Assembly: GCA_022826245.1 (NCBI GenBank)
Contig: JAJDVG010000055.1
Location: 16,882-80,881 of the forward strand
From: Gammaproteobacteria bacterium
GTDB taxonomy: Bacteria; Pseudomonadota; Gammaproteobacteria; Steroidobacterales; Rariloculaceae
Direction of reading: 5' to 3'
DNA: 64,000 bases
Positions 10,732-64,000 of the stretch are shown piece by piece. The notes below the pieces were generated by a model, which did no database searches, was not told the origin of the DNA, and saw nothing but the letters and a program-made list of their open reading frames with translations. Made by a program: the position numbers and the translations under genes. The first letter of the stretch is position 1. Each line of letters begins with the position of its first letter.

Positions 10732-11003
10732 GCGGGAGGCGCACTGCGGGTCGCTTGAAACGCGCGGTGACTACGTCCGAACAGGGTCGTCGTGGGCGTC
10801 GTCGCGGTGGTGCGGGGAAGCGCACCACGAGCCGCTTGAAACACGCCGTGAATTCATCGTGCAGGCTCAGTGTCAGCGTTGTCGCAGGGATGCGGGGAGG
10901 CGCACTACAGGCCGCTTGAAACACGCCGTAAATCCATCCCTGGAGGCTCCGCGCGCGCATCCCTGCGCGCGAGGGTTTCAAGCGGCCTGTAGTGCACCTC
11001 CCC
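10732..11003. repeat. Palindromic repeat family A, copy 1: two degenerate 80-bp half-units (10732, 10812) followed by a 110-bp nested palindrome (10894-11003)
   Basis: Left arm GGGGAGGCGCACTACAGGCCGCTTGAAAC (10894-10922) and right arm GTTTCAAGCGGCCTGTAGTGCACCTCCCC (10975-11003) are complementary at 28/29 positions; repeat units start at 10732, 10812, 10892. Confidence 0.9.
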
Positions 11004-42217: not shown

Positions 42218-43525
42218 ATGAAGTTCAATATCAGCAAAAAAGGATTCGCGCTCGGCGCCGGGTCGCTGCTCGCAACCGTTGCGCCGGGACTCGCCCTGGC
42301 GCAGGACGAACTCAATTCGGGCGACACCGCCTGGATGCTCACGGCCACGGCGCTCGTACTGTTCATGACGATCCCGGGTCTGTCGCTTTTCTACGCGGGC
42401 ATGGTGCGCGCGAAGAATGCGCTTTCGGTCATGATGCAGTGTTTCGCCATCACCTGCCTGATGACCGTGCTCTGGGCGCTCTACGTCTATAGCCTCGCGT
42501 TCGGAAACGACATCGGCGGCGTGATCGGCGACCTCAGCAAGGTATTCATGTCGGGCGTGGGAGTCGATGTCGTCAGCGGCACGATCCCGGAGACCGTCTT
42601 CTCGATCTTCCAGCTCACGTTCGCGGTCATCACGCCGGCGCTAATCGTCGGCGCATTCGCCGAACGCATGAAGTTCTCGGCGATGCTCTGGTTCATGACG
42701 CTTTGGGTCACGATCGTCTACGCGCCCATCGCGCACTGGGTCTGGGGCGGCGGCTGGCTCGGCGGTCTCGGCGTACTCGACTTCGCCGGCGGCACGGTCG
42801 TTCATATCAATGCCGGCGTTGCGGGCCTCGTCGCCGCAATCGTCCTCGGCAAGCGCCGCGGCTATCCGCGCACGGCGATGAAGCCGAGCAACCTCGTACT
42901 CACGATGGTCGGCGCGGGCATGCTCTGGGTGGGCTGGTTCGGATTCAATGCCGGCAGCGAACTCGCGGCCGACGGCGTGGCCGGCATGGCCATGGCCGTC
43001 ACCCAGATCGCAACCGCCGCGGCGGCGCTGACCTGGATGTTCCTCGAGTGGTTCAACCACGGCAAGCCGAGTGCCCTCGGCCTGGTGTCGGGCGCGGTCG
43101 CGGGCCTCGTCGCGATCACGCCGGCTTCCGGCTTCGTCGGTCCCATGGGCGCGCTCGTCATCGGCGCTGCGTCCGGGCTGCTGTGCTATCTCGCGGTCGT
43201 CAAGGTCAAGCATGCGCTCGGCTACGATGACTCTCTCGACGCCTTTGGCGTACACGGCATCGGCGGCATCGTCGGCGCGATCCTGACGGGTGTGTTCGTC
43301 GACGCCGGCCTCGGCGGCGCCGGTCTCGCCGAAGGCGCGACGATCGTTAGTCAGGTCGGTCTGCAGATTGTCGGCGTCGTGGCGACGATCATCTACTGCG
43401 GTGTCGTCAGCTTCATCCTCCTCAAGATCGTCGACGCGGTGATCGGACTTCGCGTCAGCGAGGAAGAAGAGGAAGAAGGCCTCGACCTCGTGCTGCACGA
43501 CGAGCAGGGTTATAACCTCACTTGA
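42218..43525 (+). CDS. amtB: Ammonium transporter
   Basis: PGLSLFYAGMVRAKNALSVMMQC; DFAGGTVVHINAGVAGL; HGIGGIVGAILTG. Confidence 0.95.
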   Translation: MKFNISKKGFALGAGSLLATVAPGLALAQDELNSGDTAWMLTATALVLFMTIPGLSLFYAGMVRAKNALSVMMQCFAITCLMTVLWALYVYSLAFGNDIGGVIGDLSKVFMSGVGVDVVSGTIPETVFSIFQLTFAVITPALIVGAFAERMKFSAMLWFMTLWVTIVYAPIAHWVWGGGWLGGLGVLDFAGGTVVHINAGVAGLVAAIVLGKRRGYPRTAMKPSNLVLTMVGAGMLWVGWFGFNAGSELAADGVAGMAMAVTQIATAAAALTWMFLEWFNHGKPSALGLVSGAVAGLVAITPASGFVGPMGALVIGAASGLLCYLAVVKVKHALGYDDSLDAFGVHGIGGIVGAILTGVFVDAGLGGAGLAEGATIVSQVGLQIVGVVATIIYCGVVSFILLKIVDAVIGLRVSEEEEEEGLDLVLHDEQGYNLT

Positions 43526-43622: not shown

Positions 43623-43650
43623 GGCGCCACTTCGGTGGCGCCCTTTTTTT
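43623..43650 (+). terminator. Intrinsic terminator downstream of amtB
   Basis: GGCGCCAC-TTCG-GTGGCGCC followed by CTTTTTTT. Confidence 0.95.
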
Positions 43651-43676: not shown

Positions 43677-43820
43677 GGGGCGCATTCGCATACCACCTGT
43701 TCGAGCTCAATCTCGCCGCGCCGTCCTGGCGCGGCTCGAATCGGCGGCGCGTCGCTCTGCGCCATCCATGGCCCGCTCCGCGCCGACGACGCTCGAACAG
43801 GTGGTATGCGAACGCGCCCC
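43677..43820. repeat. Palindromic repeat family B, copy 1 (144 bp, 30-bp outer arms, nested hairpins)
   Basis: GGGGCGCATTCGCATACCACCTGTTCGAGC (43677-43706) vs GCTCGAACAGGTGGTATGCGAACGCGCCCC (43791-43820): 29/30 complementary. Confidence 0.9.
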
Positions 43821-43846
43821 TACGCTCATCGTGCTCCGGTTACAGG

Positions 43847-44608
43847 TCAGAGCCGCTGGCCGCCGTCGATCTCGATGACCCGGCCGTTGACGTAGTCGTT
43901 CTCGATGATGTACGCGGCGGCGTGGGCTATTTCCTCGGGCCGGCCGATCCGGCCGACCGGGATCGACGCAGCCATTTTCTCGAGGATTTCGGGCTTCATC
44001 GCCTCGAGGATTTCCGTCTTGATGAACCCCGGTGCGATCGCGTTGGCGCGGATTCCATGGCGCGCGAGTTCCTTCGCCCAGACGACGGTCAGCGCGGCGA
44101 CCCCGGCCTTGGCGGCGGAGTAATTGCTTTGCCCGAAGTTTCCATGCCGCGAGATGCTCGAAATGTTGATGATGCACCCGCGGTTGCCGAGGCGGATCAT
44201 CTGCGCGGCGGCTTCGCGTCCACAGAGGAACACGCCGGTCAGGTTCACGTCGATCACGGCCTGCCAGTCGCCGAGCGAGAGCTTGTCGACGACCTCGCCG
44301 TCACGCGCCTTGACGAGCAGCGCGTCGCGCAGGATGCCCGCGTTGGCGATCGAGACGTCGAGGCTGCCGAAATCCCGCACGGTACGTTCGTAGACTCCCG
44401 CGACCTCGTCTTCGCTCGCGACATTTGCCGCATAGCTGCGCGCCTCGATACCCGACGGCGCGCACCGCGACCGCGTTTCCTCGAGTTTGTCCGCGTCGAC
44501 ATCGACGAGCGCGATGTTGGCGCCCTTCTCCGCGAGACCGACGGCCATCGCCGCGCCGAGACCCCGGCCGGCGCCCGTGATCAGTACGGTCTTTCCGCTC
44601 AATTCCAT
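43847..44608 (-). CDS. SDR family oxidoreductase (FabG-like)
   Basis: [43 protein letters not shown]. Confidence 0.9.
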
Positions 44609-50940: not shown

Positions 50941-51132
50941 GCCGGGAGGCGGACTACCGGTTGCTTGAGACATCGGTACGTGCGTTCAGGCAGGCTCGGC
51001 GTGCGCGGCGTCGCGATGTTGCGGGGAGGCGTACGACGGGCCGCTTGAAACACGCCGTGAATACATCCATGTAGGCTCCGCGCGCGCATCCCTGCGCGCG
51101 AGGGTTTCAAGCGGCCCGTCGTACACCTCCCC
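50941..51132. repeat. Palindromic repeat family A, copy 2: one degenerate 80-bp half-unit (50941) plus 110-bp nested palindrome (51023-51132)
   Basis: GGGGAGGCGTACGACGGGCCGCTTGAAAC (51023-51051) vs GTTTCAAGCGGCCCGTCGTACACCTCCCC (51104-51132): 28/29 complementary; half-unit spacing 80 bp. Confidence 0.9.
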
Positions 51133-56577: not shown

Positions 56578-56607
56578 TTGACACCCGCTCTCCCATCTCC
56601 CGACAAT
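56578..56607 (+). promoter_or_regulatory. Sigma70-like promoter upstream of cobalamin riboswitch
   Basis: TTGACA (56578-56583), 18-nt spacer, GACAAT (56602-56607). Confidence 0.6.
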
Positions 56608-56611
56608 ACAC

Positions 56612-56780
56612 ACAGATGGTGTCGCCACGAAGGCGGCCATGAGGGAACTCGGTGTAATTCCGAGGCTGTACCCGCAACTGTAAGCCGGGAGCTTGCGGCC
56701 CACAGGCCACTGGAGACTTCTCCGGGAAGGCGGCCAAAAAGCGATGATCGGCGAGCCAGGAGACCTGCCATCGCGTCGTT
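56612..56780 (+). ncRNA. Cobalamin riboswitch
   Basis: Conserved elements: GGTGTCGCC...GGGAACTCGGTGTAATTCCGAGGCTGTACCCGCAACTGTAAGCCGGGAGC...GCCACTGG...GGGAAGG...GAGCCAGGAGACCTGCC, directly upstream of btuB. Confidence 0.95.
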
Positions 56781-56950
56781 CGTTCGCGGGTCGGGAATAG
56801 TGCCGGCGAACGGGAGCGAGCATCGGGCCGCAACCCGGTGTCCCTTCTCCCGGGTAACGACATGCAACAAGGGCCGCGCCCCGCGGCGCCTGTCGTCGCC
56901 GGGGCCGGAGTTGTCGTTCGGCGCGCCCTCCAGGGCGCGGGAGGGGACCG

Positions 56951-63911: not shown

Positions 63912-64000
63912 GGGGTGCGGGTGCGTACTATACGTGCGACCACAATCTCGCCGCGCCGTCCCGGGCGCGGCGCGGATCGGCGGCGCGGCACGCTGCGCCA
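63912..64000. repeat. Palindromic repeat family B, copy 2 (truncated by window end)
   Basis: Shares CAATCTCGCCGCGCCGTCC...GCGCGG...ATCGGCGGCGCG...CTGCGCCA with 43708 onward, at the identical 31-nt offset from a GGGG arm start. Confidence 0.85.

Follow-up and report, generated by a model that had tools for sequence, protein, structure and literature searches.

A dispersed nested palindrome with paired GGA hairpins and its possible role as a CsrA-docking RNA

Between two convergent genes in the window (the whole stretch of 64,000 nucleotides analysed here) lies a palindrome of 144 bp that encloses two smaller hairpins, which raises the question of which of its strands matters and what such a structure could do there. 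The reading that we prefer, at a probability of roughly 0.5, is that this is a dispersed non-coding element whose minus strand forms a three-way junction with two GGA hairpins, and that it may be a CsrA-docking RNA, acting as a decoy or as a shield of transcript 3' ends and spreading in the manner of the Yersinia repeat YPAL.

The palindrome and its setting

The sequence-only reading described a nested palindrome with 29 of 30 arm pairs and inner hairpins, and that description is correct (Table 1). The arms of 30 nt are 97% complementary and stand 84 nt apart, their single mismatch being a G.U pair on the minus strand. This is the strongest inverted repeat in the window; arms of at least 25 nt with at most one mismatch occur only here and in two copies of a 110-bp element that we call family A, and none of 20 dinucleotide-resampled windows contained a comparable repeat. 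As plus-strand text, the inner hairpins read GCCGCGCC-GTCCT-GGCGCGGC and, at the end of a longer stem, GCC-ATCCAT-GGC. Folded as minus-strand RNA, the element forms a stem of about 30 bp that encloses the two inner hairpins, with a folding energy of -114.7 kcal/mol, compared with -65.5 +/- 4.0 kcal/mol for shuffled sequences (z = -12.3). A similar fold is obtained for the family A copy at 51023-51132 (z = -12.0). The gene on the left, amtB, ends on the plus strand at position 43525, and the SDR gene on the right ends on the minus strand at 43847, so that the element lies 26-27 nt beyond the SDR stop codon and in the sense orientation to that gene.

Table 1. Features of the window that bear on the palindrome
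Feature	Position	Strand	Remarks
Family B element	43677..43820	- (predicted folded strand)	144 bp inverted repeat
Outer arm, 3' side of minus-strand RNA	43677..43706		29/30 pairs with 43791-43820
Outer arm, 5' side of minus-strand RNA	43791..43820		partner of 43677-43706
Apical hairpin GCC-AUGGAU-GGC	43761..43772	-	exact C[ANGGAN]G hexaloop; GGA is the complement of 43765-43767
Second hairpin GCCGCGCC-AGGAC-GGCGCGGC	43715..43735	-	from the sequence and the family B alignment
SDR-family oxidoreductase gene	43847..44608	-	family named from sequence
amtB intrinsic terminator (GGCGCCACTTCGGTGGCGCC and T run)	43623..43650	+	kept in congeners
Partial second family B copy	63918..64000	-	R2 43.4 bits; truncated 5', outside the seed alignment
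Family A element, 110 bp, same architecture	10894..11003	-	R1 94.0 bits; in the seed alignment
Family A element, 110 bp, same architecture	51023..51132	-	R1 98.9 bits; in the seed alignment

Two families, one folded strand

A lack of further elements of this geometry would have refuted the sequence-only reading, but such elements exist in number. We built covariance models of family A (R1) and of family B (R2), to which the palindrome belongs; R2 scores the window copy, itself part of the seed alignment, at 135.7 bits on the minus strand. The source genome has two nearly complete and two partial copies of family B, one of which is cut by the end of the contig, where the window also ends. Sister genera have up to 22 matches per genome, in which the core (query positions 30-120) is conserved and the arms differ. 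Family A has more than 40 near full-length copies in the source genome, a lower bound as 40 of 104 candidates were scored. Its core, GAGCCTACANGGAYGTATTYACGG, recurs across the Gammaproteobacteria: named genomes yielded at least 120 stretches with a 24-base core pattern, nearly all from this class (Stenotrophomonas, Marinobacter, Rheinheimera, Halopseudomonas, Methylotuvimicrobium, Yersinia, Pantoea and others) and one from a record labelled Rhodobacteraceae. R1 has matches in 48 of the 196 genomes sampled from the class, with at least 21 candidates in several of them. Enlarged family A variants with extra nested hairpins in or near hairpin 1 occur in Methylomicrobium/Methylotuvimicrobium (L121, L132, L159, L198) and Rheinheimera (L090, L196).

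Many of the family A copies are accompanied by degenerate half-units that repeat about every 81 bp (positions 10735-10893 and 50942-51022 of the window, and G000 C59:145268-145494 and C39:2387-2599). Each consists of hairpin 2, the right arm and a 15-nt tail, the left arm being missing; the half-units look older with distance, and those of one array have arm variants in common.

The models of the two families cross-match weakly. R1 gives no match on the window's family B element, and R2 scores a family A copy at 36.3 bits, which is uninformative on kinship because the reverse strand of B scores no lower; homology of A and B was not accepted on this basis. The two are alike in architecture and may, but need not, be of common descent.

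In both families an outer stem of 20-40 bp varies from copy to copy with its pairing kept, around a conserved core. Across 76 family A copies of the class, arms from different copies share about 34% identity, but pairing within a copy reaches 95.6%, as against 47% (maximum 52%) after arms are swapped; these figures are for family A, and for family B, whose core varies in length, arm mismatches and RNAalifold were used. RNAalifold finds compensatory changes at 28 of 33 pairs in family A and at 29 of 44 predicted pairs in family B. Between orthologous copies in congeners, six stem pairs are altered on both sides and hexaloop changes are confined to N positions (three locus pairs, the third of which also has several broken pairs), suggesting that the structure is kept in place and not only renewed at insertion. 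The fold is thus maintained by compensatory change. The earlier proposal of a superfamily defined by structure and not by sequence therefore stands for the outer stems but fails for the cores, which are strongly conserved in sequence; its GGGG...CCCC ends, offered as part of a shared layout, are a local feature, as the arms of many relatives start differently.

The mismatches of the arms tell the strands apart. Read on the minus (GGA) strand, those within the bacterial family comprise 51 G.U and 6 A.C; part of this ratio reflects a single inherited G.U that many of the family A copies share, and family B alone gives 11:1. In other species of the class the counts are 118 and 23 (p = 1e-16, the copies being phylogenetically non-independent), with 52 copies leaning towards G.U and 7 towards A.C, and in the stems of hairpin 1 they are 37 and 2. 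This excess of G.U over A.C marks the minus strand, opposite to the text first read, as the one that matters in its folded form. RNA is the usual reading; G.T would likewise be favoured over A.C in folded single-stranded DNA.

Read on the minus strand, the two hairpins are each capped by C[ANGGAN]G, the apical loops reading CANGGANG with free N positions, and it is in this form, not as the CATCCMTG motif proposed for the other strand, that the loop is meaningful. Hairpin 1 keeps C A N GGA N G on a stem that varies freely: in windows anchored on GGA, present in 115 of 128 copies, the C is kept in 100/115, the A in 96/115 and the closing G in 103/115, while the N before GGA is T in 50, G in 39, A in 23 and C in 3. 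In the family B alignment GCCANGGANGGC is invariant and CCA(N)GGAYGG is kept. The window copy has one loop AUGGAU and one AGGAC, the latter one base shorter than the AGGGAU, AUGGAC and ACGGAC hexaloops of its relatives.

Could all this arise without any function, in a decaying repeat whose arms are kept matched by template switching during replication? Quasi-palindrome correction yields perfect arms that differ from copy to copy, and perfect arms of 28-37 bp differing between copies are what we find. Such a process does not, however, predict a strand-specific G.U bias, CANGGANG loops with free N, or a core found across a class, and this already disfavoured reading is in our view highly improbable.

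Occupied sites, spread and gene context

With the conserved amtB terminator as an anchor, the window element is seen to be absent from the same site in two congeners, G001 and G002: between the terminator's end and the SDR stop codon lie about 196 nt here, 72 nt in G001 and 40 nt in G002. Its absence from both implies that it was gained (or lost) recently. No clear target duplication is visible at 43677-43820, and the intergenic sequence of the congeners is too diverged to place the boundary. G001, while lacking the element, keeps GCGCGCCCCTACGCTCATC (L292 200-220), which matches the end of the right arm and its flank (window 43808-43830); this is either a remnant or an indication that the ends of the outer arms derive from the target. 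Another orthologous site holds a family B element in G002 (L037) and a family A element in G000 (L025), so that sites are used repeatedly.

These observations bear on an alternative that we regard as possible but doubtful, namely a purely mobile MITE- or REP-like repeat in which a transposase or recombinase supplied in trans acts on folded single-stranded DNA, the GGA loops are recognised by that enzyme and RNA is irrelevant. High copy number, presence and absence at one site, different element types at an orthologous site, the occurrence of elements without CsrA and the lack of a sense bias (both described below) are all consistent with it, as is the wobble bias, for the reason given above. 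A review describes YPAL, too, as mobile: its insertions duplicate 3-26 bp of the target, its targets lie at dyad symmetry, and its sites occur both empty and filled (PMC2229807). The window element likewise has filled and empty sites between close relatives. Against this, no Y1_Tnp gene (PF01797; RAYT/TIRYT-type) was found in the source genome or in the element-rich genomes of the family, nor was any version of the element seen to carry a transposase; moreover, compensation and loop conservation go on at orthologous, immobile copies, where a signal for mobility alone need not keep them.

The lack of Y1_Tnp also led us to reject an origin from REP/RAYT systems. Like the REP/RAYT and TIRYT repeats (GTAG and CGTC families), the elements are multi-copy intergenic palindromes, mostly 3' of genes, but the REP/RAYT repeat is a palindrome of 20-40 bp with a GTAG or CGTC tag (PMC3733652), whereas the elements here measure 144 and 110 bp (110-145 bp overall), have GGGG...CCCC ends and lack the GTAG tag. 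A phage origin was likewise rejected, with no match in a phage collection and one in viral contigs. That contig (IMGVR_UViG_2724679354_000001; L294 6209-6300) has a YPAL-type copy, the sole exact core match in the viral contig collection. A YPAL-like copy, 74.8% identical to the Yersinia one, stands beside transposase remnants on a wastewater E. coli plasmid (L295 3018-3108); four other E. coli records have comparable places.

Gene-pair counts, made from heuristic gene calls and leaving out 33 class-wide copies that overlap an ORF call, show that convergent gaps are enriched and divergent gaps depleted around the elements. At codirectional sites the elements favour neither orientation with respect to their neighbouring genes (14 sense to 15 antisense and 13:9, or 27:24 together), and the sense preference of a 3'UTR element was therefore not found there. 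Together with the depletion of divergent gaps, this agrees better with insertions being weeded out where they harm promoters than with a role in one transcript.

The context counts are also the ground for a further alternative, which we consider unlikely: an mRNA element of 3' ends whose stem terminates or protects the mRNAs of convergent genes or is cut by RNase III, as the NEMIS and ERIC repeats are reported to do, the loops being incidental. The distribution over convergent and divergent gaps would suit it, as would the very stable fold and reports on MITE RNAs, YPAL being co-expressed with upstream genes (PMC2229807). However, selection against harmful insertions also predicts promoter depletion, and a plain stem would call for the reverse of the pattern seen, in which the stem sequence is free and the loop letters are fixed. 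Nor does a U tract follow the stem on either flank, the minus strand running on as GGCCACGAAAAAG and the plus strand as TACGCTCATC, so that the element was rejected as an intrinsic terminator; amtB has a terminator of its own.

A c-di-GMP-I-GGC riboswitch (L062 1907-1997) and a sub-threshold glycine-GGAnGA match (L082 75-276) stand near elements of relatives, probably by coincidence, and the window has a cobalamin riboswitch on the plus strand at 56600-56786 (124.6 bits).

Likeness to catalogued RNAs and to CsrA sites

At gathering scores, Rfam gives no match on the window element. Family B bears a close likeness to TwoAYGGAY (RF01731, in clan CL00106 with CsrB), which has the same variable external stem and the same two adjacent AYGGAY-type hairpins on the same strand, an arrangement that the elements also have. 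CsrA binding has been proposed for TwoAYGGAY, whose external stem is poorly conserved (PMC4333381). Its model, with a gathering cut-off of 43 bits, exceeds that score in 0 of 39 genomes; the best elements reach about 36-38.2 bits, sub-threshold matches on the predicted strand include family B copies G016:C398, G019:C36 and G001:C2 and one family A copy, and the window copy gives no match up to E = 10.

Family A shares its core and architecture with YPAL/RU-2 of Yersinia (Ysr224, RF02770). That core is found in the RU-2 sequence of Y. pestis as printed in PMC2759123, and R1 recovers Yersinia similis copies at 72-75 bits, with which Rfam Ysr224 coincides. The window's family B element differs from YPAL, having another core and longer, more widely spaced hairpins.

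The consensus of CsrA/RsmA (RsmE) sites in the structural literature is (A/U)CANGGANG(U/A), and the GGA hairpin loops, compared as sequences, match it. In CsrB, RsmY and RsmZ, GGA likewise stands in C-G-closed hairpin loops and in pairs, but each of those sRNAs comes from one dedicated gene and has many GGA hairpins, whereas here there are two per copy and dozens of copies scattered over a genome. The folded strand, the CsrA-like loops, the YPAL/Ysr224 core of family A and the TwoAYGGAY likeness of family B are all absent from the sequence-only reading.

Under the CsrA reading, transcription past the stop codon of the adjacent gene would produce the minus strand as RNA, which would fold into a three-way junction of a long variable outer stem and two hairpins exposing GGA in C[ANGGAN]G. 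Each such RNA would bind a CsrA/RsmA dimer, the two GGA hairpins being the contact sites, and the transcribed copies together could form scattered CsrA decoys, shields of host transcript 3' ends, or both. The element itself would spread as a non-autonomous YPAL-like repeat.

The loops of CsrA type, the resemblance to TwoAYGGAY and the CsrB clan, the single CsrA of usual sequence in the source genome and the existence of Ysr224 as an sRNA of the same type all favour this reading; other observations weigh against it. A CsrA match is present in 42 of the 48 genomes with family A elements and in 127 of the 148 without (196 genomes), so that co-occurrence does not exceed expectation and, as a line of support, was rejected; it counts against. 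No CsrA match was found in the remaining 6 of the 48. CsrA was not found in G115 (99% complete), G109 and G142, all of which have elements with both GGA loops, nor in G133, where such elements are of a diverged type; genes missing from draft genomes may explain some of these absences, but hardly all. Against a simple CsrA decoy stand this lack of tracking and the lack of sense bias. The second loop of the window copy, one base short, and the Ysr224 model, which represents the opposite strand, also count against the reading, and CsrA binding would not account for the conserved GAGCC and UUYACGGCG flanks of hairpin 2. Given elements without CsrA and no association between the two, we hold CsrA binding at about even odds. 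Within the literature collection covered, no paper treats both YPAL and CsrA, and searches gave nothing relevant on CsrA with intergenic or transposable repeats.

The comparison joins the YPAL repeat, the Ysr224 sRNA and the TwoAYGGAY motif, which are catalogued apart, with two repeat families, and names their folded strand. If CsrA binds, many genomes would contain dozens of mobile CsrA sites, which maps of the regulator that mask repeats could miss. We would only tentatively, and with some doubt, go on to suggest that tens of mobile CsrA-binding RNAs under structural constraint are scattered at gene ends in gammaproteobacterial genomes, a repeat that might buffer or rewire the Csr network beside the CsrB-type sRNAs. 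If CsrA does not bind, a conserved GGA-loop RNA or single-stranded DNA needs another partner.

The Ysr224 model represents the strand opposite to the one that we take to be folded. Its matches at L170 1814-1920 and L123 7888-7994 lie on the strand opposite to the wobble bias, and the strand given in the catalogue may merit checking.
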